A program made the translations under genes and the position numbers. Under the pieces are notes generated by a model that saw only the letters and a list, made by a program, of their open reading frames with translations, had not been told where the DNA came from and did no database searches. Positions 1,048 to 63,718 of a DNA stretch of 64,000 nt are shown one piece after another. Positions within the stretch are counted from its first letter, which is position 1. Each line of letters begins with the position of its first letter. Source of the DNA: Tribonema minus (Eukaryota > Sar > Xanthophyceae > Tribonematales > Tribonemataceae); the NCBI GenBank assembly GCA_017506865.1, contig JAFCMP010000083.1, forward strand, positions 124,001 through 188,000, in the 5' to 3' direction.

Positions 1048-4000
1048 TCAGCCGTTGCTGGCCGGGACCAGGTGGCGCGTGCGGCGCCGCGACGAGCCCT
1101 TGGCGGTGGTGAGCAGGTCGCCCGCGCTCGTGGTGTGCAGCACGGCGGGATCGTACGCGTGGTGGCGCTTGCCTGCAGCAGCGCTCAGAGAGGGGCATCA
1201 AGGGCAGCGCCGGGCGGCAATGATGACACGGGTGAGTACACGCAAGCTTGTCTGTCTCTGCAAGCGTGCGGTGCTGCGCATTTCGAAGTAGGCACTGAAG
1301 GGCATGTCAACGGGATCATAAGAGGCGCGCCGCGGCGAGGGGGCCCCTGGACGGCCGTAAGCGATTTGCAGTCAGGGTGAGGATTAGGGTATTATGGTTT
1401 CAGCATGCAGCGTGGCTGACCGCAGGCGCAGGGCTGCTGTGTGGACCAAACACTTGCAAAACCACTGGTCACACGGAGCACAATTAAGGAATGCCTGCTG
1501 CACGCGCGGCGCGCGCAGCGAGGCGATCAGTGCTGGGCAGTCATGGGCCGGTCGCGCGTGCGCGTCTTCTTTGCAACGCACACACGGCGGAGCTTGCTGG
1601 CCCAGTGACACAGCGATCCGCGATGCCGCGTTGCTGCAGGTGATGCCGCCACCAGATCGACAGCATCATCACCGCCAGACATATGCCCGGCACAGCGCAC
1701 CACACAGAGCTGCGGGCGCGAACGACGGGCGCAATGCACACCAGCATCCCGGCGCCCTGGCTACCTACGCCGCGCCGTGCAGCTTCGCGCCGTACCTTGT
1801 CGCAGGTGATGCCGCCACCAGATGGTCCCGACGTCGGGCTCCACCCACTCGTTGCTGTGGCTGCGCATGCGCTGCTCCTGGAGCTCCAGCTGCTGCGCGT
1901 GCGACGGGGAGCGCGGCTGCGGCGGCGTGCGCCCTGCGCCCGCGTCGGCGTCCGCCTCATCCTCTATGATGGGCGTCCAGTTGTCCTGGCGGACGGGCGG
2001 CGCAGAGCGCGCGGAGAGGTGAATATGATGCGCTGGTGACCAGTTGTTGAAGTTGCGAGCATAACCTAAGTGTAGCAAGTAAGGCATGCGATGAAGTACT
2101 TGCGAGCATTGCCTAAGTGTAGTAAGTAAGGCATGCGATGAAGTACTTGGGAAAGCGCTACACGCCTGAAGCTCATGAGGCTGCAGCAGGCAGCACTGAT
2201 GCGGCGGCTCGTTCCGCGGCGCCGTGACCGCCTCCGCCGCGCCCTGCAGTGGGCCTGGTATGTTTGTGCCGCAGGCGCGCACCATGACTCAACGAAGCCA
2301 CCCTCCACGGTAATCATCTGCATTGCCATACTCGAGGCACTTGATCCCCTGGGGTATCGGGGTTCAAGATGTGAGGGCAACACGTGCGTCAATTGCCGCG
2401 TGCAACCTCCTGCACTTTGAGTGGTGTTCAGTCACCTCTCGAAGCATTACCTTGTGCCAACGTGGTCGTGCCGCAACTTCCTGGAACCCCAATGATATCA
2501 CTTCACTTCTTGAGTATTACCTTGTGCCAGTGCGGCCGCGGCCGCCGCGCGCGCTGCGGCGCCTCCTTCAGCAGCCGCGCCACCGGCTGCTCCGCCGCGC
2601 CCTGCGGCGGCGCGCGCCGCGCGGCGGCGGCGGCAGTAAATGCGCGGCCCGTGATCCAGGGGTGCCTGAGCACCTGCTGCGCCGTCCAGCGCGTCATGGG
2701 GTCGACGTCGAGCATGTGCGTCAGCAGCTCTTTGACGGAGTCACTGCGGCGGCGGCGGCGTGCAGCGCAGCGGGGGCGGAGGTGCAGCGGCGCGGCGCGT
2801 GAGACAGTGCATGTCGCTGTTGGCGCCAAGGGGGGGGAGGGGGGGGGGCTGCGAGCGGTAGCGGCGGCGTCTGCGCCCCTCATGCGCGGGAGTTTGCGGC
2901 TGCTGCGTGCAGGGGATGGCTGCGCGATGTAAGGGCACGCGCGCTGGGAGAGGCAGCGCAGCAGCTCTTGGCAGGGCGGTGAGAAGTGCTGTGGTCGGCC
3001 TTGCCTTCGTGGTGTGCCATTGTGGTGATGCTCAGCCGGCAGGAGCGCGTGAGCATCAGTCACCCTGTGTGACACGCTTGCACGGAGCATATGGACCACC
3101 AGTTGCTCGACGAAATATTGATCTGATGGCGACGCAGCAGGAAGTGGGGTGCATCGATGCGGGCACTACAGTAGTCAACTACGATTGTTCGCGACATCAC
3201 TGCGGAGGACCGGATGCAGTCGCCCGCACACGACAGTGGGGTGCACTGCACATGATGAAATGGCGCAATATCAACGCACGCTCCGGTGCGCAGTGCATCA
3301 CGAGATCTGGCGGAAGGTGGTCATGACAGTTTCAGTTTGTGGGCTACACATAAAAAAAAAATTGATGACAAGTGGCCCCAACACGTACCTGCGGCCCTTC
3401 CATTGCACCTCCGGAAACTTCAGCTCGTACCTGGCACGGCAGGAGCATGGCACACAAAGGCACCGGGTCAGGTGAATGCAAGGGCAGCACTTGAGGGCGC
3501 AAGCTGTTGGTCCCTTGCAACATCCTTAGGGTCAGAGAGAGGGCTACGGTGGCCATACATATGCACTCCGCAGCAAGCGCACTGACGGTGAACATTGCGA
3601 GCAACACGGGGGGGGGGGGGGGAAGGGAGAGGCGACGCTCCATGGGCCACAGTGCTCAGCGGCCACAAACAGTGGACGGCGCAATGGCATGCGTGTTTTG
3701 ACAGCTGAAAGACACCGGTGTCCGACTCCACTGGGTGAGAAACTGAGTGCCGCAGGCGTGCGGCGCTCGCTGCCTGCAATACAACACACAGTGCACGCAG
3801 CCAGCATGCCCTGAAGGCCAAGCCACAGACCTGGGCGATAATATACCTACCCCCACCTTTCTACCCCCACCTTTCGTAGATGTATTGGCGGTGGACAAAC
3901 GTCTAAAAACATGTACTTCCAACATCAAACAGTATACATGCACATGCGCTGACATGTCTCAATGGCATGCCTCCATTCAGTCTCACACGACCGATTGCAG

Positions 4001-7000
4001 CCGGGAATGGCCGACAATCAGCAAAGAGGTGGCATGCATTCTATTTTTGATGTCATTATGCCTCACTGAGCTCTCAGAGTTGAAGTTGACGCACCGCATC
4101 TGCGCGTGATGGCGCCCGTGGGGCAGCACGTCCACGTCCGAGTTGAACGGCAGGCGCCGCGAGTTGAGCAGGTAGATGAGCACGCCGCAGGCCCACATGT
4201 CCACGCTCTGCGAGGCACGTAGGGACGCCACAGAGTTGAAGTTTGAGTGATTGCTTAGTTGAAGTTTTGAGTACAGGATGTTTGTCAGCCTATCTGCACG
4301 TGTAGGCAGGTAGATGAGCACGCCGCAGGCCCACATGACAACGCGCTCTGCGAGGCACGTGGGGACGCCACGGATTTGAAGTTTGATAATTGCATAGCTG
4401 AAGTGTTGAGTACAGTGTGTTTGTCAGCGTATCTGCACGTGTAGACAGTGCGGCTACAGAGCTGAACCAATTTGAGATGAAGACTCGGGTGCCGATTCGA
4501 GTACACATATGTGCGTCAGGACATCTGCACGGTGTAGAAAGTGCAGCCACATGACGCCACAAGCTGAACGTTGCCACGGGATATAAATCGCATCGCCCCA
4601 CACTGCACTGCGTGCATGGACCGCAAGTGATTCCGCTGCCTGGCGGCCATCCTTCAACAGCGCATCTGCTTTGTATGTCCAGATGAGATGAGCATTCGAT
4701 GGTCTCCGCATCTTGAGATCTGATCAAAAACTGTTGTTATCATGTGGTGTACCGTCTTCCCGCCCCCTGTGCAGAGGCTGCCGAGTACTCCCAAGTTTCA
4801 CCGATATGGTGCTGTATCATCGGTGCATACCTGGCTGTAGCTGCGCTGCTGCCTGATCTCCGGAGCAATGTAGCCGCCCGTTCCCAGGAAGCTTCCCGTG
4901 AGATTGTACCGCAGAATGGTGCTGAAGCCGAAGTCAATGAGCTTCGCCTGCGGCCAGCGCGCAGCGCGGTCCACCAAAAGCAGGTTCTCCGCCTGTGGCA
5001 CAAAAAACCATGGCGAGTCATGGCGGTGAAGTTTGAGATGAGGTTCATGTGACATTGTAGATGAGAAGAATCTGAGAGCTTCTACAACTTTCAAGCAGCT
5101 TACAAGCTTTAATATCATGCCGATGGTCTATTTGGGACGACATGAGGCACTGAGCGTCCATGCACGTCATATACCTCCATTGGCATAATGTTCAAGTGCC
5201 CAGCCCCTGCTGCGCTGGCGCAAAAAAGCACTGCTAGCGATGGCGCAGCACCCCAGCTGCAGGAAAGCGTCCGCATCAGGCATGTATTAAAGCACGGAGG
5301 CGTGTAAACAGCACCCTTGCCCATAGCACACAGCATGGACGGCGCGAGGCCACCGTCGATGCCACTGCCGTTGGCGTCCGGCCGACCCCACAACGCGGCC
5401 ATGTTTCATGCCTCAGATCGAAACACAACGCGAGCGAGTCATGTGCAACCGCAAGGTCGCAGAACGCATGCTGCCGCGGCGCCAAGGCGTCATGCTTGTG
5501 TGACTCACATTGAAACACAGGGTGAGTCATGAGTCATGTGCTTCTGCGCGGTCGCAGAACGCCCTGCCGCGGCACCGCACCGCCATGCTTCGCGACTCAA
5601 TCAATACACAAGGTGAGTCGTGAGTCACGCGCTTCTGCAAAGCTGTAGACCGCGGCACCATGCACCCATGCTTCACGACTCAGATTGAAAAGGAAGGCGA
5701 GTCACGAGTCACACGCTTCCGCAACGTACAAGTGCGCTGCCGCGGCGCGGCGCGCGGCGCACCTTGAGGTCCCTGTGCACCACGCCGCGCGAGTGCATGT
5801 GCGCAATGCTGCTCACAACGCCATGCATGAGGTGTGCGGCGCCATGCCGCCATGCTTCATGCCTCAGATCGAAACACACTCAGATCAAAACACGGGGTGA
5901 GTCGTGAGTCACACGCTTCCGCACCTTGAGGTCCCTGTGCACCACGCCGCGCGAGTGCATGTACGCGATGCAGCTCACAACGCCGTGCATGAGGTGCGCG
6001 GCGCGCTCCTCCTCCATGCAGCCGTTCTCCAGCAGCCAGTCGAAGAGCTCGCCGCCCGACACCAGCTCCATCACAACCTGCCCAATATATAGGTCGCACA
6101 CAAAGCGTACGAAGTGGTCGTGACTGGCTGGCGCAAAGGCCATCAGAGCACAAAGAGATGAGCCAGGAGCAGGTGGTGAACAGGCGGCGGTCGTCACCAC
6201 CGATCGATACGGCGAGCCACAGGCCACGAGGACGATGCTGCTGGCAATCAGAGCACTGTGCGCATAGTGCAGTGGCAGATTAAAACAGTTTGCACACCGT
6301 GACCGGCGTCACACAACCTGCTGCGGACGGGGCGCAAGAGAACCCGCCGATGACGCGAGCGTCGCCGGCCGGCACACACAGCCTTGGGCACCGTCTAGGG
6401 GTAGAAGAAGCAGCTGGTAAACAGAGCACTGTGCGAGCTTTGCAGCAGCAGGTAGCACAACAAGCAGGGCGGTGGCGACCGGTCGGCATGACCGAGCCTC
6501 GCAAACGTGAAAGGCACATGGCGGACGGAGCACTACGCAGACGCCGCGACGCGCTTCGGCAGTGGGTCGCAATGGGCCGCGCACTGCACTTTGCAACAGG
6601 TGCGCATTGCGCTGAGCATCGCTGACCAACTCGCGGCGCCTTTACATACACTGCAGCAGAGCAGACGGCGTTTGCGCACTGCAGGAGCACCCAAGTGTGT
6701 AATACCCCCACTGCCACTCATGTCACTTGGTCAGCTACACGTGATGCACAGGGACAAGCGCCCGCACCCTGATCAGCTCGAGGGGGGAAACGCAGCCATG
6801 TCTGGCCCATGTAACTGAGGAAATTGCAGTCGCAACAGCAATCAAAACTCACTTCAACTTCAACCTTCCACATTTCATGAACTCGCTGCGCGATGCCTGA
6901 AGCTGCACTGCAACACGCGCTAGCCACTCACTTACGCCGACCGTCTCTACCACACCCGCAAGGCTGGCTGGGGTTTGTATAAAGTAGGTCCAGGACGCTC

Positions 7001-10899: not shown

Positions 10900-11161
10900 G
10901 GTCGCGGCGCCTGAGGCTCTTCACAGCGCGTCGCACACAGGCATTGCGTCAACTCTCAAAGGCTGCACTTTCGGGATTAAACTTCAACAAAGGCTTGAAT
11001 TTGTGTGTTCGAAGACTTTCCTTGATTGTGGATCCATGGAGCCTCATGAGGTCGCAATGCTGCGCATAGATGGAAGTGCAGCTTAGAGTGAGGACAGCAA
11101 ACACCTGATCTAGTCCAAACACAGGCGCCGCGTGCTTTTGTGACAAAATCCCACGGAGCGA
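10900..11161. promoter_or_regulatory. Bidirectional promoter region between the kinase and USP
   Basis: The start codons of the kinase (10899, minus) and the USP (11162, plus) are 262 bp apart and face away from each other. All 5' untranslated sequence and both promoters must fit here or overlap the first introns. I see no convincing TATA box. A TTGAAGTT-like element (AAACTTCAACAAAGG) occurs at about 10979. Confidence 0.6.
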
Positions 11162-14100
11162 ATGCACGACATTGAACTTCGGGTCGAAGTGAGGCGTTTC
11201 GTTGAACACCAGGACGGTGCGTCGAGATCATTTGTATTCTTTACAATCAGCTATCATTTCTCAGCTGTCACCCTTTTGTTCCGTCACCTGTCTCGACCCG
11301 GGCCATGCAGTGCACAATGTCTGCTGTTGAAGTGAAAAACAGATTGCGAGCGCGCTGAAGCTCCCCTACCTCGTGGGGACGCCTCCTTTTGCTTCCTTTC
11401 CGCGCAGGTCACATCGTCTATGAAGCGGTCGTCTGTCTGCTCAGCACAGATCAGGCAAGCATTTGCCTCCAGGTTCACCATATTGCGTTGCCCTGTGTCG
11501 GAATGCACGCTGTGAGTGCAAGGCGTATCTGTGCCGGAAGTTATCGGGATCGTCGGTATTCGATGGACTCCGCTCTTCGCGACTGTCATGTGCGGTTGCT
11601 GCTTGTTGAAAACACCAACTCCTGCACAGTCCATGACCACGCGTCGAAGGCGTTGCCGACCACGTGCACGCACGCCAGAGCTCTCACACTTTCCCCATGA
11701 CAGAATTAGGTATTATCGATCGTAGAAGCATGTGAAGCTGCAATACGCTGCATGAGTTTTGCTCCTCATCACCACGAATATTGGGCTGTGCTGGTTTTCA
11801 AAGTCTCATGCGTGTCAACGACCAACCATCTTTCTCATCTCCAGGTATGGAGCGTGCACAAACGGTACTCGGCGTTCGTGCGGCTGCGGGCGGCGCTGAA
11901 GGCGCGCTACCTCGGCGGCCATGGCGCGCCAGCGGCGGGCGTGAAGTTCACGGGCGACATCCCGCTGCACGACATACTGAGCCACTGCAAGCTGCACCGC
12001 CACCCTTTGAGCCGCCTGGTCTCGCACGAGAAGGCGCTGGAGCAGCGCAGGGCTGACTGCAGCCATTTCCTGCAGGTCAGTGCGTCACGTGTAACCATTC
12101 AGCGATCGTATGTGCACTCGTTTGCACCAGGTCCGAGCTGGCGGTTACTAGCGGTTACCGCTGGCCTTCGCGCCTCCAGCTGCCTCGCGTTGTTCTCCAT
12201 CGTGCAGGAATAGCAGCGGGCGGACTGCAGCCATCCCAGCATACTGGTGATGTAGCGACAGCTTTAACTGAGCAGTTTGGCAATTGCTATCCAACTTGGC
12301 ACCTTGGAGAGGCCTTTCATGCCCAAGACAGCCAACTTCAATGGCACCGTCGCTTTAAGTGGAAGCTGCCTCCACGCACTGCATGACGCATCAGCACAAA
12401 TTCTGCTTTCTTGAAGTGCATCCTTGGACCTGCTACAGAGCGACTCCCCCCCCCCTCCCCCCACCCCCATCATCATTCACTCCGTTTCTCAGCAGCTGCT
12501 GATGCCCCCCATATCCATTCACTCCGTTCCGCCGCAGCTGCTGGTGGGTCTGCGGCCCGTTCCGCAGGAGGTCGCTGCGTTCCTCGAGCTCCTGCACGAG
12601 CAGCGCCTCGCGCTGCGCACGCACGGCTCCGGCGCCTACAGCTATGCCATCGCGTCGCCGCCGCTGTCCGTGCCCGCGTCCCCCCCCTCCTCGGCGGGGG
12701 GCGCCTCGGAGGGGAGAGGGGGTTCATCCCCCCCCCTCGCGTCGCCGCCGTCGCCCGACGGCAGCAGCGCCGAGGACTGGTCCTCGGACGACGACGCGTT
12801 ATATATGCAGGCGCGCGCGGCGGTCGTGGTGGTGGACTCGCGCGAGCCGGGGGACGCGGTGAACGAGGACAGGGGGGTGGCGGCGGCGGCGGCGGTGGCG
12901 ACGCTCAACGGCGGCGGCGGCGGCAACGATCGGATGGAGGTGGTGGACGAGGGGGATGGGGGGAAGGGGGCGGAGGGTGGAGGGGAGGGGGCGGAGCAGG
13001 ACATGGAGGCGACGCTCCTGCTGGAGTTTGTGCTGGGGTACATTGAGGGGGTCGTGAGGGGCGCGGTGGAGTCGCAGGTGGGGGCTGCGGGTGTTGACGC
13101 GTACGCGTCCAGCGTTTGTGCATTGCGTGTGTCTTTCAGTCGATTGAGTGCGTCCTGCAATTGCAATGCTCAACAGGGGCATAGGGGGGCGCTTCACCCC
13201 CAGCTGCCGGAGGTTGTGGAGGCAGCGCTCCTGATGTTGGTTGTGCTGGGGTGCACTGGCGGCATCGTGACAGGCCTGATGGAGATTGTCGATTATTCTG
13301 TCAGTATGTGAGTCATCTCCTAGTGGCAAGAGCGCTGTGCACTTTCTGGATCCAGGGCGGCGCATGTCAAGGTGGCATGCATATATTGGGCGATGAAGGG
13401 TTCTAGTAGACAACTGTCTCACACATAAAGCCGGGGGCCTCACTGACTTGCATCCGGCTGATGCTCTGAGTTGTAGAGAGTATCGAAGCTTTCCAGGATA
13501 TGCCGGCTCATTGCAGGCGCCTTCTGCGTAAACTCATGCGTACACGTCACCACACATCTTGCAGTACCTCACAACTGAGTAATCTCAGCCGACCTTGAAC
13601 ACCCCCTAGGTTGAACACCTGTTGAGCACTGCATATGCGTCACGTGTAACATGAACTTGCACATGAAAGTTGCACATGCCGATGCAACCGTTATGACAGT
13701 TGAAGGAACTCGATTGAGTAAAACACTATGAAGCCAGCAGTTGCGTCTTATCGTGCATTGGGGCACGTTTGGTGCTTTCAATTAGCGCTCTCTGCCTGGT
13801 CAGTTGTTCTGGTCCGGCCTCCACGCTCGTGCCGCTGACAACAGCGTGTCCCAGTTTGGTCACGCGACGCCACAGTGTGTTCTGAGGTATGTATTGAAGT
13901 ACTACAGCGTATGGCTCAGTGCAGTGCCTATCACTGAGACCGCCATACTCACCGCCTGCAGCATCACCTGAGCTGTCAGCAGGGCGCGCGTGCGCAGCCA
14001 CTGCTCTCACGCCACCACGCACGGTTGTAGTCACGGGCCACCCAAGCACGTGCTTTCAGGCGCTTACTTCCAATCTGCCCTGACACTGAGCCCACCCTAA

Positions 14101-16572
14101 CGAAATGTTGCTCCAAACGTGTGCAGGCACCGCGCAGGCTGCAGCAGGCCGCCGCCGCCGCGCCCCTGCTCTCGGAGGACGACCAGCGGCTGCGGATGGC
14201 GCAGCTGGCGAGCTTACACGTTGCGGGCCTCGGGGAGGCAGAGCTGGTGCTGCTGCTGAGACACTGCGACTGGAGCGCGCAGCGTGCGGCAGCGCTCTAC
14301 CAGGTGTGAAACCACCTGTACTCATATATATCCTTGGGAATGTAGAGGCTCAGCCGCTCCTTGTCGCGGCTGTAAACTGGCGACTGGAGAGTGTCTGCAC
14401 GGAGCAGGACGCCGTCGTCGTTGAGGCGATTGTCGGATGCAGTCACGGCGGCGTCATGCAGGAGCGTTGTCACGAAACTGCCGTATGATGCGCCCTGCAT
14501 CTGCATTCCATGATTGGGTGCTGGTTTCTGGTTTCCAACAGAGGTCAGAATCATGGCAGCATTCAGCATTGCTGATCAGATCAGCTGCTAAGTGGCAATG
14601 TAATACTCATACAAAAACTTGTCTGCACTGGTTTCTGGTTTCCAACAAAAGTCAAGATCATTGCAGCATGCAGCATTGCTCATCACATCAGCTGCCAAGT
14701 GGCAATGTAATGCTCGTACACGAAGTTGTATGTACGGCATGAGCGTACAGTTTGCGGCAGCGCGCTGTCCAGCCCGGCCAGCTTCGAATAGACGCCAGCG
14801 CGACGGCAGACACTTTCTGAGGTAGGAAACATGGTCAGATTCATGGCGGTGTTGTCGCCCAATTCACACTGTTCGCGTATGGGAACAATGCTCTGCGTGT
14901 ACAATGCTGGTGCGCCCCGCCTGTGCTCACCCACCAGGTATCTTTCTGCAGTGTGAGGCAGCATGGCAGTGTCTGATACGCAAGGTCAGAACCCATTGGA
15001 GTCCAAGTCTGAGTCTGACTTGTGCGCTTCGCACCTGCGCCCATTTCAATGCAGGAGCTCGTGGCCGCGGGCAAGGGCTTTTTGGAGCCCGTGCCAGCGG
15101 CGCCAGAGCGCGTGCGCGGCGCGACCAACGGCGGCAACACCTGCTACCTGGACAGTTTGCTGGTGGGTGCACAAAGCGAATGCAGCACATGGAAAGCGCT
15201 GCATGTGATATTGTTGAAGCGTAAGGACTCCACTTAAAGCGCCAGAGAGTGCACGTGCCACTCGGGCTTTTTGAGTGGGGGCGCTGAGAAACGGCATTGC
15301 GACTCACTCCACATCAGACTTGCCTGTGTGTTGTGGAGGCGAAGCGCTGCTGAGTGTTCTATATGGTCATGAACTGCAGCGTGTCACATGCCTCAATGGC
15401 AAAGAAATTAGTAATGGGTTTGGAGTCTAATCGCTAACTCTACGTAATGCATCACCAACTGCTGCTGCAACGTTAGCATTCTGGTCAGGCCGCCAACAGC
15501 AGCTTTCCACCGCAGGCGTGCATGTGGTCAAATACATGATGTGTGGAGCTCTGACCCCCCCCCCCCCCCCCCACTCCCCGCTGCTTGCTGTGCGCCTGTG
15601 CAGTTCGCCATGTTCGCGTGCACGAGCGCGTTCGACTGGCTGCTCATGAAGCCCCTGCGGCGCACGGACCCCGCATCTCTGCACCTTCTGCAGATGAACT
15701 TGAGGTTCTTCGTGGGACAGGTGCGCGCACACGCATCCGCGGTACTCGTCGAAAAGGACACCTGGGTTCAGAGGGGAAGCCATGTACCTGAGTCGTCTTA
15801 GCGGCCTTGTGCTTGCCCTGCTCGGCCGTCTCGCCCAACGCTAACATGACCTTGCAGAATGCTGAGACACGTCCAAAGCAGGAAGTTCCGCAAGTGCCTG
15901 TGGATTTCACCACAGAGCTTCGCCCATCATCCATGCTCCTCAAGCCACGGACCACGTCTGCAGGCGGTGTCTGGACTTGCTGACTTCTGAACCCCCCCCC
16001 CCCTCTCCCTGTTGCGCGCTGCTGCAGATGAGGCGCGGAGCGCTGGTGCCCGGCGACCACGCGAACGTCATCCGGCGCTGCCTGGTCGGCTGCGGCTGGG
16101 GGACCGCCGCGGGGGTGGGCGGGGACAGCGGCGCACTGCACTCGCAGCAGGTGCGCAAGCATGGTTGACGTCGCTTACAGCGGGGTAAAGTTGAAGTTGA
16201 AGTTAAAGACTGAGCGATGGACACCGCGCTGCGCACTTGCGCGGCTCTGAAACGGCGACTTTACTCTCGCTCGCCCCCCCCCGCACCACCTCCCTCCCCC
16301 GCCGTCTGTGTGGGATGTGAGCGAGCTGCACAGCTTGTGGCTCGCACTCTTCTGCGTGGCATCGCTGCCGCTCTGCCATTGCGTGTTCTGCAGCCGCCTT
16401 CTCCCCGCTGACTCCACTTGCCGCTGATCCTGAGCGCCGCTGCTAGCACTCCGCAGGCCGCGTCGTTCTGCGGTCCGCGCCAACTTTGAAGTTGCTTACA
16501 CTGCAGTGGGGCCAAGTTGGGAGGGATGACACCGCGCGCGCTTACGCCGCCCCTTTGACGGCGCCATCGCTC

Positions 16573-16603
<31 letters not shown>

Positions 16604-23528: not shown

Positions 23529-23570
23529 TTATTGATATTGCCGGCTCTCCTGCAGGCGCTTGCACGCCAG
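23221..23570. repeat. Three-unit tandem repeat of the RPB11 3' end
   Basis: Units of 139 and 129 bp begin at 23221, 23360 and 23489. Each contains GATATTGCCGG..CTCCTGCAGGC..TTGCACGC, which is the reverse complement of the end of the RPB11 coding sequence ([11 protein letters not shown]), and a shared GGCATTGAGATAC.. junction. Only the right-hand unit belongs to the gene. The copies lie immediately downstream of its stop codon. Confidence 0.85.
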
Positions 23571-33065: not shown

Positions 33066-33103
<38 letters not shown>

Positions 33104-38453: not shown

Positions 38454-38901
38454 TCATGTCGGTGCGAAAGTGCCGTCGTCGCGCGCGAGCGCGTAGCCGC
38501 CGCGCTCCTCGCCGGCGCGCGCGCAGCAGTGCGGAATGTCCCTGCCGCACATGAACAGCAGCCAGTCGCGCCAGGACAGTCCGGGCGGCGCGCGGTCGAA
38601 GTCCAGCGGCGACACGAGCGCGCGGCAGGCGACGCACTGCGACGCAAATACCCCCACGAGCGGGAAGGCCATGTTGGAAGCAACGGTGCCCATGGAGGAG
38701 ATGATGGCGGCAGGGACGTCTGCTGGGCTGAGGCTCTCTGCGCCGGGCTCCGCGCTGAACGCGTCTGCCGCCAGCGTTGGAAACAGCAGTATGTACGGCG
38801 CCATCGCCATGAGAGGGATGAGGAGCGTCCACAGCTCCCGTGACTTGCGGAAGCCCGGCGGCGGCGGCGGCAGCGGCAGCCGCTGCGAGGTTGAGTGGAG
38901 G

Positions 38902-38938
<37 letters not shown>

Positions 38939-39953: not shown

Positions 39954-40151
39954 GGCGCGTACGGATGTGCTGCGCCTTGCGCTGCGCAGATTAGCGAGCG
40001 ACCCGCCGAGGCGCAGCGCGGTAGAAGGTACGAGGAAAAAAGCTCTCAAGCACAGAAGTTCAACTTGAACTGATGTGCTTGAAGTTTTTGCAAATCTTTC
40101 GTGTGACTTGTTTGCGCGGGGAGTGGAGCAACTGACTGGCAAGCGCCCCTG
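39954..40151. promoter_or_regulatory. Bidirectional promoter region
   Basis: The start codons at 39953 (minus) and 40152 (plus) are 198 bp apart. Both genes must share this space. It contains AAGTTCAACTTGAACT and TGCTTGAAGTTTTT, two forms of the motif that is frequent in this window. Confidence 0.5.
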
Positions 40152-52811: not shown

Positions 52812-55800
52812 ATGCGGAGGCGCTACGGCTATGGGCTGAAGATGCCGCTCAACAAGCGAGTGTTGCCATCCATGCCACGGAAGCAACGACAGCGTGCGCT
52901 CCTAGCCTCAGCGAGCGACCCGTCCTTGCGCGCTCAGCACCACCATGGGGGCCTGCACCCTGGCGATCAGCACTTCGGGTTGGACGACGATGACATCATC
53001 AGCATCTTCAGCAACTCCATCGGAGGCTTAAATTCGATGGCTTCATCCACTGAGGGTTCTGTGGAGAGCTACCTGTCTGGAGCGCAGGAGGTCATCCAGG
53101 TGAACCACTTTGGCACGCCATCGCTGAAGTAATCTGTCATGTGCAAACCCACATGTTTGTGTCGCGCGCTGTCGGCAGTGCAAAGCTGGCTGTACGCCCC
53201 CCCTCCTCTCCACACTGATAATGCCCTCAACCAGTTAAATCTGCTGCTGCGCAGGCTCAGCGGCGCACGTGCGTGCGGCGGCAGCAGCTGTACGACCAGA
53301 TGCGCGACGGCGGCGGCAGGCGCGGCGAAGGCGGCGACGGCGATGCTGATGCCTCCAGCGTCGGCAGCTGGTCGCGCAGCATAGCGTCCATGGAATCGGT
53401 GGTGGGAGGGGGCGCGCAGCAGGAGCAGCAGTACTGCCAGTTGCAGGTGGGGCATGCGCTGCTGATGGCGCTGCGGTGTGGGCGCCGGACCACTGCCTGC
53501 AAGAGAGCGTGTCTGCATGTTGGTGTTCACTTCACTAGAGGTTGACCACGCCCAGTGGTTGTTGCAGTTGTACCACTGCTGACGTGCCAGTTGGCGCACC
53601 GGAGTGCTGACGTCTTCGAATGCGCTGCGCGATGCAGACACCGCCGGCGCGCCTTGCCGAGCGCTCCGCCGGCGTCAGCGCCCCCAGCAGCACTGCTCAA
53701 CCAGAAGACCATCGCACATGCCATCCTCAAGAACTGTCCGTGGAAAGTTCCAGGATCCGTGGCAGAGTGCGCTACGGACCCGTCCTGGAAGGGGAGACCC
53801 CCATCATCCTGGAGCAGAACTCCGATGGCGAAGCGTCAGCGACGCCTCGGCGGCGGGGGCGGCGGCGGCAGCGCATCGAGCTGGGGCTAGGGCTTGAGGA
53901 GACCCCGAGCCCGATCGTCGGTAGCAGCGTGCGGGCCAGGGGGAGCGGGGAGGGGGACGGGGACCCTGAGAGGTGGTCCACTGGGGGCGGGGCGGGGGGA
54001 GGGGGGGGGCTGGCGCCGGACCTGTCAATGCACTTCACGGAGCACATGCTGCACAGGGTGACGCGCGTGACGGGCGCGTGCCCGGTGAGTTGAGCGCTGC
54101 TGCAGCATGGATAGGATGCGATGTCGCACGCGCAGCGCTTGCATGTTGACGCGCATGGACGGGAGTGCAGCGCGTGCACGCCCCCTCTGTCGTGGAGTGG
54201 CTGACTGCATATGTTTGAGGCAGCGGACAACTCCACGTGGCTTCTGGCTTCACATTCTGTACAACAGTCATGGATATACAACGATTTGACGTGCTCAGAC
54301 GCCAAACTGTGGAGGCTCTCATGACGCACAGCAGCTCAGTTGCAAAGGCTGGCATTGAGAGTTGGCTGACCCTAGTGCGCAGCCACACCAAAGGTTCTCT
54401 GCCTAACCCTACCCATAACTTTAACCCTCATCCTAACCCTACACCCTAACCATAACCTTACTTTAACCCTCATCCTAACCCTACACCCTTACCCTAACCT
54501 TACCCTAACTTAGCACTTGTTTTCGTCGGCAATGCTAAAAAACGAGCAGGCAGTTGCGCTTATAGTTCAAGGCGCTGTTGGTGCAGGCGCTTTACTGCAC
54601 TATGTCGTCGGTGAACTTGTGACAATGCAGGGTTCTACTTCAGTCCAGCAGGTGTCTTATGCAACAGCTCCCAAGTGTCCAGCTCGGGTTAGGGTTAGGG
54701 TTAGGGTTAGGCTCTCATACCCGGTACTCAGCACACTCCCACAGGTTTGGACGCACTGTTGCGATTACAACCTTGTAGGCCCACAACTGAGATGTCTACA
54801 ACGTTCCTGTATGCCGATCATCTGAGATGTCTGCAACATTCCTGTATGCCAACTATCTTTGCTTTGAACAGGGCGAGGATGGCGCGTCCTCCGTGTGCAG
54901 CAGCTCAGTTGGCCCCGAGGTGGACGATGAGAAGGTGCTGCAGCTGGACAAACTCAGGCGCAGCGACGCGCTGGTGGCGACGATCAACAGCATGCAGAAG
55001 GTGACTCCGACTCACAGATCTGACTCAGACTCGTGGAATCGCATTTGCGAGTATTGCGCGGCAGTCCGCGTGCCAGGCGATAGCATGCAGAAGGTGACTT
55101 CGACTCACAAATCTGACTCATACTTGTTGACTCTTATTTGCGGGTGTTGTTCGGCAGTCCAGTCGCCTGGCACGCGGACCGCATGACGTGAATCATGCGC
55201 CACCATTTTAAAAGTGGCGGCATATATTGTGCACATGGCACAGGTTCCAGTTTGACACCGACATGAAGACTTGTACAGTAGGACTTTCAGGGCTCAGAGC
55301 GGTATGAAAGCTTTCAAGGGACAGGATACCTAAGTCAAAGACAACAGATACTGAGATGTTGACTTTGGTTCAAAGCTCAGGGTTCAACACACAGCCTGTG
55401 TGTTCGCAGACTCTCGGACAATTGGCATGGTTTAGGGGCCACGAAACCACTTGCGCGATGCATGCATGCTCCACTTTCACTTTCTTGCCTTCATGAAGCT
55501 AGGTGCAGCGCAATTCAACTCTGAGGATTCACATGGCTGGCACCATCATGCTGACATCCTTGCACTTCTGTGATTGCCTTGCCAGATATGTACTTATTCT
55601 CAGTGCACGTTGTGTACGACACAGGGCAGCATTGCGAATTCAAGCATCACGCCTGTACAGACCTGTCTGCATTGCATAATTGCAATGCAGCACCAACGGA
55701 CAGAACGTGATACAATAGTATGCAGATCGTTGAGGCAACAAATACACGCAGTGAATAAGTACGCCACTGAAAGCCCACATGCTCATTTCCCCCTACATTC

Positions 55801-58800
55801 TTGCTGGCACCACCGCGCGTGTCTGGCAGCTCGGGAACAGCTTTGAGGACACGATACGGCTGGTGTACGGGCACCGCAAACGCCTAGGAGATCAGCTGTG
55901 CCGCGTGCGCACCAAGTACATGCAGCTCTTCGAAGACATGCTCCAGGAGGTATGGCCGGGAAGTCAAATGTACTACTTCGAAGTATGATTTACTCATACT
56001 CATGTGCTTGGTGATCAGCTGTGCCGCGTGCGCACCGAGTGCATGCAGCTCTTCAAAGACATGCTTCGGGAGGTACGTACACATGCGAGCAAGGCATGGA
56101 CCCCAATGTGCTTGGACGTACTCATACTCGTATGAACATACCATATATATGCTCGTATGTGGCAGGGCAGGGTCATGTGGCGTGCGCATGTGACGTGCCT
56201 TTTCTTTGAGGCTTTGTTGTCACGGACAGCAGTGGGTGTGCGCCTCACACAAGCGGTGGAAGTGCGCAAAATGCCGACGCTGAGGCACGCACAAGTCGGC
56301 ATAACCCGGCGTGTGCTTGTGGGCGACCAAGTACATTGCGGTAGAACGCTGGACGAAAGTGCAGGCAACAGCGTGGAGGATCTTAGGGTCAGGGTCAGGG
56401 TCAGGGTTAGGGTTAGGGTTAGGGCTAGGTATATGCGCGCTTGACTCCGCAGTCCAACGGTCGCATGCACTGAGTGTGCTGCCGTCACACGATGGAGGGG
56501 TACGCTACGGCGACGGCCTCCGGCACATCGAATGCAGCGACTGCACAAGCTGCTTGCTTTCGTGTCGAGGGGCGTAAACGCATGCGACTGACTACGCACG
56601 CGGCGAGCACATCAAATGTAGCCTCCTGCACAAGCGAGCGGCCTGTGCGTCAAGGAGGCATGGGCGCGTGCGAGAGGCGGCACGCACGGCGCGCGTTAAA
56701 CGCCAGGCTCGGTTGCGCGCTGACCCTTAGGCACGTCACACCCTGTCCTGCACGTCACACCCTGTCCTTCTGCGATCGCGCGCAGCTGCTGCGCCTCCAG
56801 CGCGCCAAGGACCGCAACTTCAAGCGGCAGAACGCGGCGCTGCGGCAGTCGCTGGCGGCGCTGCGCGCGCGGCAGGAGGGGCTCATGGAGCTCACCGACC
56901 TGCAGGACAAGCAGTCGCTCGTGCTGAGCGCGACCAACACGGCGCTGAAGACGCAGGTGGGCGCGCGCGCGTGTGCGACGGATATTTTACCTGTATGACA
57001 GGCAATGGTCGTTGCAGGTTGGGAGGTACACAGAGCATGATGTGATAAGGACAAGCAGTCGCTCGTGCTGAGCGCGACCAACACGGCGCCGAAGACGCAG
57101 GTGGGCGCGCGCGCGCGCGTGCGGCGGAGGTTTGATATCAGTTGAAGTCTGACAAGCAATGATGCGCAGCTCCGCCCAGTGCAGCGCTGCACAAGTCGGG
57201 TGGCTGATTGTACATGTGTGTGGGCGTATGGTGCGACTGTCCGTGCAGGCGGGAGCCACAGCGCCAGGCATGATAACATGTATCTTTGTAAACTGCACAG
57301 GGGAGTGACTGGTTGATGCCCTGACATCAGTACTGGGGAGGAGGTTGTAGAGCGCGCCTCGTTTGTGGCGCAAATGAAAACTGCCCGCCCCCGCTTACAG
57401 TTGCTGATCCTATGATGCGTCATTGAACGCTGCCACCTCGCTACGGCGTGAATTCGCCTCCCCCCCCCCGTTGAGCTCCATCGCACGCACGAGGAACAGA
57501 GACGTGCGCTGCTGTGCGTACGCGCAACGCCCTTCGCACACGGAGCCTTGGCGCGTATCAGGGGCAGCGCTCAGCACTAGCACGGCCCGCACATCTATCC
57601 TCGCCGCCGTCGCCGCCGCAGCTCAAGCCTTAGCGTGTTGGCGCCGCTCGCTCCGTTGCAGGTCATGTGCATGGAGAAGCAGCTGGAGGACGCGGAGAAG
57701 ACGACGCTGCTGGCGGGCGCGGTGAGCGTCGCCTGCTCAAGTTGAAGTTATCAGACCTCAAATTGAAGTGCTAACAGCGTGTGCCCGCACTACACGTGAG
57801 GGAGAGCAGGCGCTGGGCGCGGTGAGGAGAGGGCGTGTCACGTGGTATTGCGGCACTGCAAAGAACCGCTGCAAAACAGGGACGTAGGCATGTATCTGCT
57901 GAGCGCTGCTGCATTCCTCAGAGAGCAGGCGTCTGTGCGCCTGCACTAGCGCTGTGTATGCAGCGCATGTTGTCAACTGCCGTGCGCAGCGCGCAAGAGG
58001 ATGCGCGTTGACCATGCTCCCCCATGTACCACGATCAAAGTTAGTTGGCGATGAGTATATGGGGATCTGGACACTTTCAACCCAAGTGACCATCGCCGCT
58101 GACCCTAGCTGACTGAGACCCCCCATGCGCCATTGTGGCAAAACTTGGTGAGCACCGCACAGAATCACACGCAGCTCAAGGAGGAGAGGGCGCAGCGCGA
58201 GCTGGAGCGGGCGCAGCTGGCGCAGCGCCTGCGGGACGAGGAGGAGGTGCTGGTGCGCCGCATGGCCGCAGAGGTGCGTCACCCACGGCTGAATAGGGTG
58301 GTTCTAGTCTCGAGAGGCTGTGTTTGCATGCACGGCGGTTGACAGCTGATGTGCTCCAATGCATGGCAGACACTCAAGAGGTACAGTTGAAGGGGGGTTG
58401 CGAGGTCTCGCAGCAGCTGGCGCAGCGCCTGCGGGAGGAGGAGGAGGTGCTGGTGCGCCGCTAACCCTAAGGTGCGTCACCCCCGTTCCAGCACTTGAAC
58501 TTTGGAGATGGTGTGTGTACTGCCATATGCCTGCGTGCATAGCGAGTGCGCAGCACGGAGGTTGGGTACCTTGCCGCACGCGGCGGCATGGCCTTCTCCA
58601 AAGCGCGAGCCTGCCTGATGTTGCCAAGAAGTTGCGGACACAGCGACCACGCGTACAGTGCTCAGTGATGCATACTTCAACACGCCGCATGCACCACGTG
58701 TGCGCGCTTGACAGCTCCTGCTTCACCTGGCCTCTACTGGACGCTCATCGTGCCTGCACTGAGGGTTAGGGTTAGGTTAGGGTTGGGATTAGGGCTAGGG

Positions 58801-61800
58801 TTAGGGTTAGGGTTAGGGTCAGGGTTAGAGTTAGGGTCAGGGTCCGCGCGCCCAGGCCAGGACGGGCCCGCACCATATTGTCAACTCAAAACATCATGTA
58901 CTCTCACTTGACGGCCCCGCGCTGCTGCGGCCATCAGCCACAAAGTGCACACCACGCGAGCGGCCCGTGTCTTCAACGTGAAGTAAACATACAGTGTACT
59001 GTACGCTCCTCGCTCGTGTGTTTGGTACTCTCATGCGTCTGTCTGCCCCGCGCCCGGCAGTCCGCGGCAGAGACGCGAGCGGCGGCGCGCGTCTGCCAGG
59101 AAGGTGCAAGCAGCGACCACACGCACAGTGCTCAGTAATGCATATTTCAACACGCTGCATGCGCCACGCGAGCGCCCTTGACAGCTTCTGCTTCACCTTA
59201 CCACATCTTCAGATAAGTATTAGACAGCAAACTGATACTCCCATGCGTCTGCCTGCCCCGCCTCTGGCAGTCGGCGGCAGAGACGCGAGCGGCGGCGCGC
59301 GTCAACGCGCTGGAGGGCCTGGAGGCCAGCATGGCGCGCGTCACCGCCTCGCAGGCGCAAGTTCAAAAGGTGGACCTCAGCAAGTTCAAGTGAGTCCGGG
59401 GGGGGAGAGGGGGTGATGATGCGCGCTGCTTTGCGGCCCTTCACGATCAGCGCAAATTGGCGATGGCTTGGGGTGTTGAATGACAGTAGTAGGTTCAAAT
59501 GAGTCCTGGGGGGAGGGGGGGGCGAGGTGATGCTACACGCTGCTTGGCGGTCCCCCTCATAGCGATTGTAGTATGGTAGCGGTTTGACGAATTGGAATCA
59601 TTTCTGCAGTGAAGGACTTCTATGACAGTCGCAGCTCTCGAAGTGACAAGAACCTTGCGTCCCTCAAGGGGCCTCATGGCAAAATCGTATGCCTTGAGCA
59701 GCAGCAAGATTCAGTGCTGTTTTTCTTAATGGCGGGTCTAGCATTGTGATCTTATGATGCACACCAACTTAAAGTGCTTTGACCATTGATTTGGCGGACA
59801 CCAACGGCGCCACAGCGCAGACTGCACTCTGACACCCTTGTCAAAAGCACGTCAAGCAGAGAAGGGCGATGCCTGACGCTCATTCTTCTGTGTCCTTTGT
59901 GATTCAACTATAAGAGGTCATCATGGCGTGAACCCGGCGTGACCCCGGCGTGTGCAACGCCATTGCCTTTAACTCCTGACCACGGCGACCTCCTCCCTCC
60001 CCCCTCCTGTGTGTGTGTGTGTGTGAACAAGCTGAACATTAACCCGAGCCCCACTTGCTTTGTGTTCTGCTGGTCGACTTTTGCAGGAGCATTGTGCCGG
60101 TGGCGGAGGCGTGGAGCCAGACGTTGGTCAACGACGACGGGCTGTGGGACATTCAGGTCAGCGCTCCGCGTGCACTTCAACTTCAGCAATTCATTGAAGT
60201 TCGTCTTCAACCAGTTGCAGTTGATGATGTGCGGAACCCTGCCATGAGCTCGCGGCGCTGAACTTGCGAGGCGTTGAGTTCTGTGGACTGTGGAACATTC
60301 CGGTCAGCACCTGCAAATGCGGGCGCATCGGCGTGCGTCCAACACATGCACATCACTGCGTGCACATGCCCGCGTCATTGTACCCGCCACCTCGTGAAGC
60401 ACGCGCAAGTACCGCCGCGTGAGCACGTACGTACACCTGCGCACACCCCTTGCGCGCGCGACCCAGTGGCTGCATGCGCAATGTTTGCCGTAACGTGTGC
60501 GCCAGACGCCCGCATTCTTATTTATAAGTCGGCTCAACTGATATGCGCCTGTTCTGAGCAATACATGCATACCCTTGCTTGCACACAGATACATACCCTG
60601 CACGTACACATGCATACATACCCTTGTGCCCACGGCAGGACGGCTGCGTGCGCGAGATCAGCCGCAACAGGCTCATTAATGTGCCCTTGCGTACAAATCC
60701 CTGCATGCACATCACCATACCTACATCTCTTTGCTACACGTAGATACCCGTGCGTGTACACATACGTAAAACAAATCCCTGTGCACCTTCTCTTGCGCCC
60801 GCGACAGGACGGCTGCGTGCGCGAGATCAGCCGCAACATGTGGCTGCGCATCCAGTGGCAGCGCGGGCGGAGGTTCGCTGCGTGCCCCGCGTGCAAAGGC
60901 GCCGGCAGCTACCTGCTGGCAGCTAAGGTACTATGTGATGCCATCTGGCATTGTTGTTACAGAACTGGTCATCAATGCATACTGAGACACTTTGTCACAA
61001 TGTACAGATTATGGTAGTCGAGCAAGCGAAGTAACAAGCAACATGTACAATCGAACGTATTCCGAAGTGTATCGAGCTGGGCTGTCTTGGTCTGCGCACT
61101 GCGTTGACGTACATGTGCTTAACCTGCTTCCGCTCAAGGGGCAGAAACCCTTTGAGTATGCAGGTCTTGCGCTTGTGGAACGTGTGTGTGCTCACGGCGC
61201 ATGCATGTAAGCTCCTTCACAGCAGCGCATTCCTCTGCTTGAGTGCGTTGTGCTGCACGGCGCTGCGTGTTTTATGGGGTGAATTCAGGCCCATCTGCTG
61301 ATGGCAATGCTCAGCGCTGTGCTCTCGAAATTGCCTTCTTGTTTCTTGACGCGCTCAGGACAACCGGAACCTTCCGCCAACGAAAGACCGTGCTGGCGAC
61401 GATCCAACACTGACACACACGTGAGTGCCATTTGTTGCTCTTTGGGGTTAACCACAAGTAGGGACTTGTATCGAAAGAAACTCAAAGCCGCTCACGAGGG
61501 CGCCAGAGCAGCGGCGCATTGCGGCAGGCATTGGGTGGCAACAGCTCTTGCAGCGCGTGACCCGACAATTTATTCATCGCAGTCAATGGTAATCGCCCCC
61601 CCCCCCAAGCTATGCGGTGTATGGGCCGTTGCGACCGCCTTGGGAACTGCGGTCGAACACAGAGCTAGCGAAGCACATACCTCTCGTTCACACGCATGCA
61701 TCCCTCAACACGCGTCATAGCCGCCGCGCGTGTTGGCAGCGCGCCCGTGAGCAGCGCTTGATGAGCGTGAAGCCCCTGCGCCGCTGCAGGCCCTGCCCAT

Positions 61801-63718
61801 ACACATGTCGTCAGCCACGTTGCCCGTACGTGCCAAACTCGTTGTTTGGCAAATGCGAACGCGTGCCAACATGCTTCAGTATGATATTGTGCTGCACCTT
61901 TGAGCCGCACTGCGCAAAGTGCACATCTCAGTTGGCGCTGAGCGTGCCACATTGTGATCAATGAACACCTAGTAGGGTAGGATAAAGTAGCACCAACTCT
62001 CAGCGGCGCTCTGCTGAACCCTTGCTGAACGATGACTCCTGTCTGATTGAGACCTCTGCGCCAGAGGTTGAAGCAAAAACGCGCGCGCGCGCTCCTCTGA
62101 ACCCATCTGCTGCTCGTCGATTGCGCGCGCAACGGCACCGGCACCAAGAGTGTTTATGCGTTGCCTACCAGCTAGGGCTCTGCTTCAGCTGTGTGCCTCC
62201 GTATTGTTGACCTGTGCCAGACAACAAACGACGGCGCTACGCTACGCTGCAGCTTCCCCGAGTCTCTCTGCAAAAACTTCACATTCTATTCCGTACGCCC
62301 ATTCCCCATCTTCTGCTCGTCGACTGCGCGCGCAGCGGCGCCGGCACCCAGAGCAAGCGGTCGCGCTCGAATAAACTCTCAGCGGCGCTCCGCAGAACCC
62401 TTGCCAAAGGACAACCCCTGTCTGAATGAGAACATCTGAAACTTATGTGCCAGAGGCTGGAGCCAGCGCGCACACGCTCTGTTGAACCCATCTGCTGCTC
62501 GTCTACTGCGCGCGCAGCGGCGCCGGCACCAAGAGCAAGTGGTCGCGCGCATCGCACCTAGGATAAACTCTCAATGGCACTCCGCTGAACCCTTGCTAAA
62601 CGGTAACTCCTCTCTGATAGAGACAATCTAAGATTTGTGTGCCAGAGACTGAAGCACATGCGCAAACGCCCCTTTGAACTATGTTTTACAGTCATTGGAC
62701 ACAGTCCACACTGCAGTCACAATCACTGTGTCAGCTGTCCGCTCGTTAGGGGTGGCTTGAAGTGCCCATCCGCCGCCCACCGACTGCGCGCGCAGCGGCG
62801 CCGGCACCAAGAGCAAGCGGTCGCGCGCGTCGCACCTCGACCGCCACTGGAGCATGCCCAACAAGCTGGTCGACTTCCTGTGCAACCTGCCCAAGACGGC
62901 GCAGGCGCTGCCCGTGCGGCCGCTGCGCTGGCTCGTGCGCCAGATCTGGGTCATCCTGGACGAGAAGGTACGGGCAAAAAGCAGATTGGACTTCAGCGTG
63001 GAGTTACACGGCGCAGATGGTGAATTGTTGTCTCCAAGTAGGTGGCCTGCCTGCATCTGTTGTCAATTGCGGTGTAGCAGATCTGGGTCATCCTGAACGA
63101 GAAGGTACGGGCGCGCACGCAGGCGCAATGCGCAGATGGTCAAACACGGTCCCCAAGTAGGCGGCCTCCCTACTTCTATTCTGCGGTGCAACTGTCCGCG
63201 GAGCCTGATGGGAGATGAAAATCCTAACCCTAACCCTAACCCTGACCCTAACCCATGGGGTAGCTTGCGCCGGGTGCTGCATCACCGTGAATGATGTAGT
63301 GCGTCCTTTGCGTAAGGCGCCACTGCTTGCGATAGCGCACGGCAAGAAGTGGCTTTCAGCAACGTTCGCCTAGTGCACTCCTACAGCCCGCCCGTGAAAC
63401 GAGCATTTGTGACTCTAGAGGTAGCTCCACCGCACGCCAAGCGCAGCTTCAACACAACTGTGCTGAGCAATGCAGCCTGGGGCCGCATCCCGGCAATGCT
63501 GCTCACCCCACCTGTCGTTTCACCACCACAGCCAATCACCCACCCCCCGCCGCCGCCGCCGCCGCCGACTGCACAACCGATGGTGCGCGTCCCACCTGTA
63601 ATGAACCTCACCTTGCATGAGCCACGCTCGTGTAACCGCCACCGCCTCCGCCGCCGATGAATGCGCGCCGCCGGCGCAGGAGCGCATGGACGCGATCGAC
63701 GACTTTGAGGACTCATAA
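52812..63718 (+). CDS. Coiled-coil protein of unknown function, 699 residues
   Basis: Fourteen exons join in phase: 52812-53099, 53255-53446, 53638-54084, 54872-55000, 55830-55949, 56786-56956, 57662-57721, 58163-58273, 59271-59389, 60087-60156, 60808-60927, 61359-61420, 62796-62967, 63680-63718. The N-terminus is basic (MRRRYGYGLKMPLNKR), then an acidic IISIFSN patch and Gly/Asp-rich low complexity to about 300. From about 375 to 545 there is a strong heptad pattern (LLRLQRAKDRNFKRQNAALR, LKEERAQRELERAQLAQRL). A CPACKGAG motif, like one DnaJ zinc repeat, is at about 597. The C-terminal block (NKLVDFLCNLPKTAQALPVR, PLRWLVRQIWVILDEK) looks like a conserved helical domain and ends ERMDAIDDFEDS. 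A cytoskeletal or ciliary role would fit such an architecture but is only a guess. The introns contain telomere-like tracts and many exon-edge duplications. The 62-bp exon 12 and the last exon are the least certain. Confidence 0.83.
54402..54511. repeat. Interstitial telomere-like tract 1 (C-rich strand)
   Basis: About 110 bp of imperfect CCCTAA-type repeats (CCTAACCCTACACCCTAACC, TTAACCCTCATCCTAACCC) in intron 3 of the coiled-coil gene. The degeneracy indicates age. Confidence 0.9.
54686..54711. repeat. Interstitial telomere-like tract 2 (G-rich strand)
   Basis: Four perfect TTAGGG units in the same intron as tract 1 but in the opposite orientation, 175 bp away. Confidence 0.9.
54989..55180 (+). 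repeat. Duplicated donor edge of coiled-coil exon 4
   Basis: A unit of about 93 bp (AGCATGCAGAAGGTGACT, CGACTCACA.ATCTGACTCA, GGCAGTCC) occurs at 54989 and 55082. The exon ends in the first copy (CAGAAG, then GTGACT). The second copy keeps the same exon end and donor. Confidence 0.85.
55888..56072 (+). repeat. Duplicated donor edge of coiled-coil exon 5
   Basis: The last 60 bp of exon 5 (GDQLCRVRTKYMQLFEDMLQ) recur at 56012-56072, 123 bp downstream, still open (DQLCRVRTECMQLFKDMLRE) and followed by a GTACGT donor that is stronger than the real GTATGG. Confidence 0.88.
56382..56430. repeat. Interstitial telomere-like tract 3
   Basis: Repeats of AGGGTC grading into AGGGTT (TTAGGG type) in intron 5 of the coiled-coil gene. 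Confidence 0.9.
57049..57100 (+). repeat. Duplicated donor edge of coiled-coil exon 6
   Basis: Copies the end of exon 6 (DKQSLVLSATNTALKTQ) 144 bp downstream with a single coding change in the core (CTGAAG to CCGAAG) and the same GTGGGCGCGCGC donor. Confidence 0.88.
58413..58470 (+). repeat. Duplicated donor edge of coiled-coil exon 8, carrying a telomere-like patch
   Basis: The end of exon 8 (QLAQRLRDEEEVLVRR) recurs about 200 bp downstream. In the copy the last bases of the exon are replaced by TAACCCTAAG directly before GTGCGTCACCC, so a telomere-type patch sits exactly at the exon end. Confidence 0.8.
58761..58844. repeat. Interstitial telomere-like tract 4
   Basis: About 84 bp of TTAGGG-type units with variants (TTGGGA, TTAGAG, TCAGGG) in intron 8 of the coiled-coil gene. 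Confidence 0.9.
59061..59093 (+). repeat. Upstream copy of the acceptor edge of coiled-coil exon 9
   Basis: GGCAG then TC(C/G)GCGGCAGAGACGCGAG and CGGCGGCGCGCGTC occurs at 59056 and at the real exon (59271), 210 bp apart. A donor-edge echo of the same exon lies at 59490-59520 (GTTCAAATGAGTCC, then a G-run). Confidence 0.8.
60639..60674 (+). repeat. Upstream copy of the acceptor edge of coiled-coil exon 11
   Basis: GACGGCTGCGTGCGCGAGAT, then CAGCCGCAACA, preceded by a CAG acceptor, is present at 60639 and at the real exon start 60808 (169 bp). Surrounding TACATACCC/GTACACATGCATAC sequence is also loosely repeated. Confidence 0.85.
62114..62840 (+). repeat. Four copies of the acceptor edge of coiled-coil exon 13
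   Basis: A block with GAACCCATCTGCTGCTCGTC, TGCGCGCGCAGCGGCGCCGG and CACCAAGAGCAAG.GGTCGCG is present at about 62099, 62305, 62485 and at the real exon (acceptor at 62795). Units are 180-310 bp and include TAAACTCTCA.(C/T)GGC.CTCCGC and AACCCTTGC. The first 35-45 bp of the exon are copied each time with an intact acceptor. Confidence 0.87.
63077..63110 (+). repeat. Duplicated donor edge of coiled-coil exon 13
   Basis: CAGATCTGGGTCATCCTG(G/A)A, then CGAGAAG and GTACGGGC, is repeated 137 bp downstream of the real exon end, with one substitution. Confidence 0.85.
63222..63254. repeat. Interstitial telomere-like tract 5 (C-rich strand)
   Basis: Five CCCTAA-type units (one CCCTGA) in intron 13 of the coiled-coil gene. 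Confidence 0.9.

Follow-up and report, generated by a model that had tools for sequence, protein, structure and literature searches.

Intron gain by tandem genomic duplication was reportedly described by Gao and Lynch in 2009. In its accessible part, PMC3443670 treats the tandem genomic duplication of AGGT segments as a recognised route to new introns, and the accessible part of PMC4974935 presents a case. The exon-edge copies analysed here in Tribonema minus resemble this route in being local tandem duplications within genes, with repeats that carry splice sites and a protein left unchanged if the surplus is spliced out. They differ in their unit, which straddles a junction already in place and extends an intron that was there before; no case of a new intron was observed. 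Small tandem duplications have also been tied to breaks with complementary 3' protrusions (PMC8355091, accessible part). As far as that part describes them, these share the head-to-tail arrangement with our copies, which in contrast are concentrated at splice junctions and are known from sequence alone. Introners are mobile families, some with target duplications of 3-9 bp (PMC9860276, accessible part); there too, in that portion of the source, one process changes many introns of one genome, whereas our copies derive from the neighbouring exon. In the literature covered, mostly papers open without subscription and available in part, no genome was recognised with exon-edge duplication at such a scale.

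Sequences, gene models and tests

The window, the whole stretch of DNA that was analysed, covers 64,000 nucleotides of the 158-Mb T. minus genome, which is assembled in 554 contigs. To it were added 20 loci of 10 kb on seven contigs, hand-picked at round coordinates before looking. An HMM gene finder was trained on the window and these loci, and its version with a strong intron penalty was used. All exons are predictions of this model, trained on the same loci as were counted. Predicted donors come close to AG/GTRMGT and acceptors read GCAG/, the slash marking the junction, and the predicted median lengths are 156 bp for exons and 623 bp for introns. One locus, L009, was predicted as a single 10-kb exon and was excluded from every count; open over positions 1-10000, with repeats mostly 315 bp apart, it perhaps encodes a giant repetitive protein. 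Exons shorter than 60 bp were left off the junction lists, and the self-alignment sample comprised the window and 19 loci (254 kb), with 180 predicted exons of at least 60 bp.

In the edge test, each exon edge was compared with the adjacent intron and scored against 100 non-adjacent intron stretches; at most about 1% are expected to pass by chance. A self-alignment cluster was counted as noncoding unless it shared at least 8 bp with an exon. One hit per cluster, that with the smallest spacing, was used in extent statistics and simulations alike. Forward simulations combined the real exon map with neutral substitution, indels, random tandem duplication, exon purging and balancing deletions.

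Copies of exon edges in the window

The window was predicted to hold four genic blocks. Pfam searches with queries from three of them matched a protein kinase (7e-65), a ubiquitin hydrolase (7e-10) and an RPB11-like piece (3e-28), and the search with the query from the fourth gave no match. The third gene model (23529-45746, 1909 aa) is probably several genes fused, the last part being RPB11-like.

An initial annotation of this DNA had reported exon edges copied into the adjoining introns at 23 junctions. Fifteen of these pass the edge test (1796, 4207, 5925, 13077, 17472, 18541, 25537, 30504, 32106, 47981, 49982, 55949, 59271, here modelled as 59281, 60808 and 62796). At five more, a direct repeat in the self-alignment spans or reaches the edge: 47761 and 62967, which lay outside the edge-tested set, and 55000, 56956 and 58273, which scored below the edge-test threshold, the intron tested at 56956 being shortened by a predicted exon inside the copy. 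The remaining three are unconfirmed. The edge test confirmed no copy at 2521 (z 0.6) or 59389 (z -0.4), and 12538, outside the edge-tested set, is no junction in the HMM model and lies within a predicted exon, in a 42-bp repeat. Exon-edge copying is real and is found outside the window too, and the annotation as a whole is partly confirmed.

Table 1. Exon-edge copies and repeats in the window (z, edge-test score)
Positions	Strand	Feature	Support
1631..1657	-	Donor-edge copy, exon 1796-1985 (kinase gene)	z 10.9; bounds read by eye
4168..4448	-	Tandem pair, period 138-139, acceptor edge of kinase exon 4095-4207, about 40 bp exonic	z 20.7
5758..5842	-	Donor-edge copy, kinase exon 5925-6077, 80 bp exonic, 94% identical	z 28.4
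13217..13284	+	Weak donor-edge copy (75%), exon 12439-13077	z 6.0
16279..17531	+	Array of acceptor-edge copies, exon 17472-17664	z 34.1
18493..18838	+	Tandem pair, period 170, 68% identical, donor edge, exon 18393-18541	z 14.4
23209..23571	-	Repeat pair, spacing 133, left edge of predicted exon 23529-23675	Self-alignment
25515..25919	-	Tandem pair, period 194, acceptor edge, exon 25390-25537; related repeats to 26440	z 4.3
30235..30545	-	Tandem pair, period 163 (TRF) or 171 (BLAST), donor edge, exon 30504-30644	z 17.5; outside filtered self-alignment list
31953..32004	-	Donor-edge copy, exon 32106-32211	z 15.3
47214..47768	+	About 5.7 tandem copies, period 94, acceptor edge, exon start 47718 or 47761 (two models differ)	Self-alignment
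49924..50252	+	Tandem pair, period 168, donor edge, exon 49828-49982, 59 bp exonic	z 37.4
54989..55160	+	Tandem pair, period 93, donor edge, exon 54872-55000, 12 bp exonic	Self-alignment; z 1.8, below threshold
56007..56075	+	Donor-edge copy, exon 55830-55949, 66 bp exonic and 3 bp intronic	z 30.9
57048..57128	+	Donor-edge copy, exon 56786-56956, 53 bp exonic, 94%	Self-alignment; z 3.5, below threshold
58413..58485	+	Donor-edge copy, exon 58175-58273, 61 bp exonic	Self-alignment; z 9.3, below threshold, not above every null draw
59023..59303	+	Repeat pair, spacing 210, acceptor edge, exon 59281-59389	z 7.9; outside filtered self-alignment list
60623..60669	+	Acceptor-edge copy, exon 60808-60927	z 15.8
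61995..62837	+	Array of acceptor-edge copies, exon 62796-62967	z 17.0
63078..63112	+	Donor-edge copy, exon 62796-62967, 27 bp exonic, 97%	Self-alignment; outside edge-tested set

The left edge of exon 23529-23675 is a gene end in the HMM model and may be a donor instead. Where the unit copied from the 55949 edge would be expected to end, a 10-mer was recognised by eye; it suggests that this copy belongs to an old tandem unit with a turned-over intron part. Intronic minisatellites have periods and copy numbers comparable to those of some arrays. The array at 47214-47768 is like them in both respects, but its unit includes coding sequence and a splice site. A perfect 62-bp tandem pair also lies at 63852-63974, in predicted intergenic DNA.

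Excess of duplications at splice junctions

Across the window and 19 loci, 50 of 302 exon edges proved to be copied into the intron next to them (donors 27/151, acceptors 23/151). This is beyond chance: exon-interior segments gave 5/166, slightly above the 1% that the test allows, and opposite edges 2/166. Without the window, the counts are 32 of 204 edges versus 4 of 118 interior segments. Self-alignment yielded 48 junction-spanning clusters, of which three (in L007, L011 and one in L013) may be coding repeats overrunning the predicted exon, and 20 noncoding clusters, at least three of which (L014, L015, L018) reach or end within 5 bp of an exon edge; one further cluster was exon-only. Outside the window, 31 of 47 clusters span a junction. 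The statement that every spliced gene carries such copies holds for all four blocks of the window but not genome-wide, loci varying greatly and 8 of the 19 others having no junction-spanning cluster.

The presence of the splice site in each copy, which had been taken as informative, proves nothing, because any tandem copy with exon sequence must contain the junction. We compared frequencies. In 300 draws of random viable placement, 20.0 +/- 3.4 of the 68 clusters spanned a junction (maximum 30), and placement within genic stretches only gave 34%. This null places one pair per cluster and is thus too low for arrays, so forward simulations were run. Forty of them, in four settings, gave a mean of 22-25% junction clusters (maximum 32.5%) against 48/68 observed; they were not tuned to the observed total, and this set made more noncoding clusters than were seen. 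For the 19 loci alone, 24 simulations gave 23% (maximum 36%) against 31/47. Picking breakpoints by available microhomology gave 21-25%, and we rejected microhomology supply as the cause of the junction focus (66-71% observed). Junctions are over-represented relative to both expectations.

The excess was stable over seven filter settings, which speaks against an artefact of low-complexity filtering, and three other exon sets gave 46-49 junction and 19-22 noncoding clusters, which speaks against the choice of exons as its cause. Age-matched counts of junction and noncoding clusters were 13/3, 26/14, 33/20 and 40/20 at exon-part divergences of up to 0.05, 0.10, 0.15 and 0.20. Array expansion contributes to the excess, since single-pair clusters in the 19 loci numbered 12 junction versus 13 noncoding, and four later 10-kb loci held two junction-spanning versus four noncoding clusters. 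Ten light-harvesting or kinase loci, chosen by gene family, gave three versus none.

The share of intron sequence covered by repeats is 12.5-16% up to 250 bp from a junction, 9-11% between 375 and 650 bp, and 2-5% at distances above 675 bp; donors alone show no steady fall with distance, coverage being 13-15% at 525-625 bp. Across the 19 loci, junction clusters, noncoding clusters and telomere-like repeats are pairwise correlated (Spearman 0.71, 0.62, 0.64), and exon count correlates with junction clusters at 0.47. The joint rise of the three kinds of repeat suggests a shared local mutation regime.

Anatomy and decay of the copies

The copies are head-to-tail and in direct orientation in self-alignments and paralog alignments alike, with an aligned length sometimes well below the spacing. 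Extent statistics cover 42 events with one exonic arm, the other 6 of the 48 junction clusters having no such hit. The exonic part measures 12-104 bp (median about 42) and the median spacing is 143 bp. Donors (27) and acceptors (15) have median exonic parts of 43 and 42 bp, and medians of 100 and 102 bp for spacing minus exonic part. The ratio of exonic extent to spacing exceeds 0.56 in none of the 42 events, as against 38-43% of simulated ones; its maximum is 0.65 when exons of at least 100 bp are used. Scaled to the limits set by exon length and spacing, the extent is not uniform (KS p 4e-7), and it is at most 68 bp in all of the 11 events, out of 42, that lie at exons of at least 200 bp.

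Since the exon-side ends lie 12-104 bp inside the exon, they are not at AG/GT, and one paralog unit described below reaches about 58 bp into the intron; the proposal that duplication starts at the AG/GT junction is unsupported. The word tandem suits many cases. In nine of the 42 events, however, among them that at 55949, the alignment extends only 0-21 bp beyond the junction into the intron and is shorter than the spacing. We read these short ends as probable later turnover, and an AG/GT start or a copy ending near the junction would leave the same trace.

Identity between copies is 91% in exonic and 74% in intronic parts (30 events), as expected if the original exon alone is constrained. The copied splice sites decay neutrally: the dinucleotide is kept in 37 of 47 donor copies (38.6 expected) and 24 of 28 acceptor copies (22.8 expected), 7 of the 75 original sites being model gene ends and not GT/GC or AG. 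In 60 bp of the 55949 copy, five changes read by eye fall at codon positions 1, 2, 1, 3 and 2.

Paralogous genes with and without copies

Chlorophyll-binding proteins are numerous in this genome, with at least 92 matches. Of solved relatives, one Lhc query matched fucoxanthin-chlorophyll proteins of diatom entries best, and another the LHCI chains of 9vfj. Two light-harvesting paralogs, L036 and L035, are about 90% alike. At one exon, L036 carries additional copies, two of the acceptor edge and three of the donor edge; L035 has none, and they are absent at the same exon of the more distant paralog L037. The intron upstream of this exon is 966 bp long in L036 versus 660 bp, and the acceptor unit, read by eye, comprises about 58 bp of intron and 65 bp of exon. 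Likewise, L023 has two acceptor-edge copies and its paralog L022 none. In these two cases, the joints, again read by eye, lie at CCCC (L036) and CCAC (L023). In both pairs the copy-free gene has an intron at the same place, and a gain of copies in L036 and L023 would be the simpler reading.

The flanks on contigs C1 and C79 gave no alignment beyond the light-harvesting exons except a 151-bp match. Contigs C90 and C179 (L038/L039) are collinear, 91% identical over 9.9 kb including noncoding DNA, and may be diverged homologous segments or haplotypes; few exons are predicted in this stretch, and none of its repeats passed the filter. No second haplotype was present among the matches listed for the window stretch and L015, and none was recognised among those for L019. 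The small contig C296 shares an identical 3.4-kb stretch with C490 (L025/L026), either a recent duplication or an assembly duplicate.

Telomere-like repeats and other repeats

Contig C546 ends in TTAGGG repeats, and we therefore took TTAGGG as the telomere motif. Similar tracts lie in window introns at 54402-54509, 54684-54713, 56383-56429, 58760-58843 and 63220-63254. In all, 42 telomere-like clusters were found versus 0.8 expected in Markov sequence. Merged, they number 39 in 254 kb, and none overlaps a predicted exon of at least 60 bp. As a possible mark of breaks, these interstitial repeats were rejected: they lie weakly near duplications (18/34 within 150 bp versus 33% expected, p 0.014) and no nearer to junctions than chance.

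One 7.3-kb window stretch was compared with the genome. Among the best candidates listed outside the stretch itself, all but three small matches, located on two contigs, were telomere-like; for this stretch, no dispersed family of similar introns was seen and introners were rejected. What had looked like an inverted-repeat element in L019 proved to be a poly-alanine coding repeat. Positions 1-1886 of L007 form a noncoding array with a period of about 109 bp.

Discussion

We consider it probable that the copies arise by local head-to-tail duplication straddling an existing splice junction, through repair or slippage, and that the change is nearly neutral. A unit of typically about 40 bp of exon and 100 bp of intron would be duplicated across the junction; the likeliest cause is replication slippage or the error-prone repair of a local break, in some cases with short microhomology at the joint. 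The surplus copy would come to lie on the intron side, where the original exon and its splice site could keep working; presumably it is spliced out, leaving the protein unchanged. Thereafter the copy would decay, while the intron would stay longer. Exon-edge duplication is common and makes introns longer, as the initial annotation had supposed.

The main question is what focuses the duplications on junctions. It is unlikely that nothing does, with duplications falling at random, exonic ones being purged and exon-anchored ones staying detectable longer through their constrained copy. Such a purely neutral process accounts for the junction in every exon-bearing tandem copy, by geometry, for the split in identity between exonic and intronic parts, and for repeat coverage that stays level across the junction and on through the first 250 bp of the intron; single-pair clusters (12/25, 19 loci) and the later loci (2/6) also come closer to its value. 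Yet it yields far fewer junction clusters in simulation than were observed, even with microhomology-chosen breakpoints, and many events beyond the 0.56 ratio that no real one exceeds. The junction excess together with the short exonic extent calls for more than tolerated duplication: a mutational hot zone or selective retention. If random duplications were selectively retained, those at junctions with short exonic parts would be kept, longer copies being, for example, recognised as exons and harming splicing. The similar extents at donors and acceptors fit a constraint of exon versus intron better than a 5'-to-3' RNA process, and the short extents at long exons fit as well. Retention nevertheless leaves the rarity of intron-only duplications, presumably harmless, unexplained, and the copied dinucleotides persist about as often as neutral decay predicts; we regard it as rather improbable. 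Breakage coupled to splicing or transcription, or RNA templating, at junctions would account for the junction focus and for the nine alignments ending just past the junction. The mirror symmetry of donor and acceptor extents speaks against a strongly polar RNA mechanism, and this too appears rather improbable.

Two further meanings offered for the copies find little room. Decoy or backup splice sites under selection would agree with the many copies that retain GT (36/47) or AG (23/28), but retention is about what neutral decay predicts and the changes in the 55949 copy are spread over all three codon positions; such selection is most improbable. The same goes for the birth of introns from an AGGT segment of an exon duplicated in tandem. 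The mechanism is a known one (PMC3443670, accessible part), but it predicts opposite-edge copies, which within exons were found at chance level, and the copy-free members of the two paralog pairs already have the intron. Returning to junction-straddling duplication by repair or slippage, we infer that exon borders may be a mutational hot zone rather than places of better retention. Tentatively, and with less confidence than in the duplication process itself, we propose that splice junctions could be mutational hot spots of tandem duplication in this lineage, at which a factor of exon borders (splicing, transcription or chromatin) would set the site of breaks or re-synthesis, and that introns may grow from their edges as the neighbouring exon is copied.

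For genome annotation the copies call for caution, as they mimic real exon ends; our HMM gene finder appears to call exons inside some of them (e.g. 57059-57129). Exon-edge copying bears on how introns lengthen and on whether splicing affects mutation of DNA. With about one exon edge in six carrying a recognisable copy, T. minus offers many events in which breakpoints can be read against splice sites.
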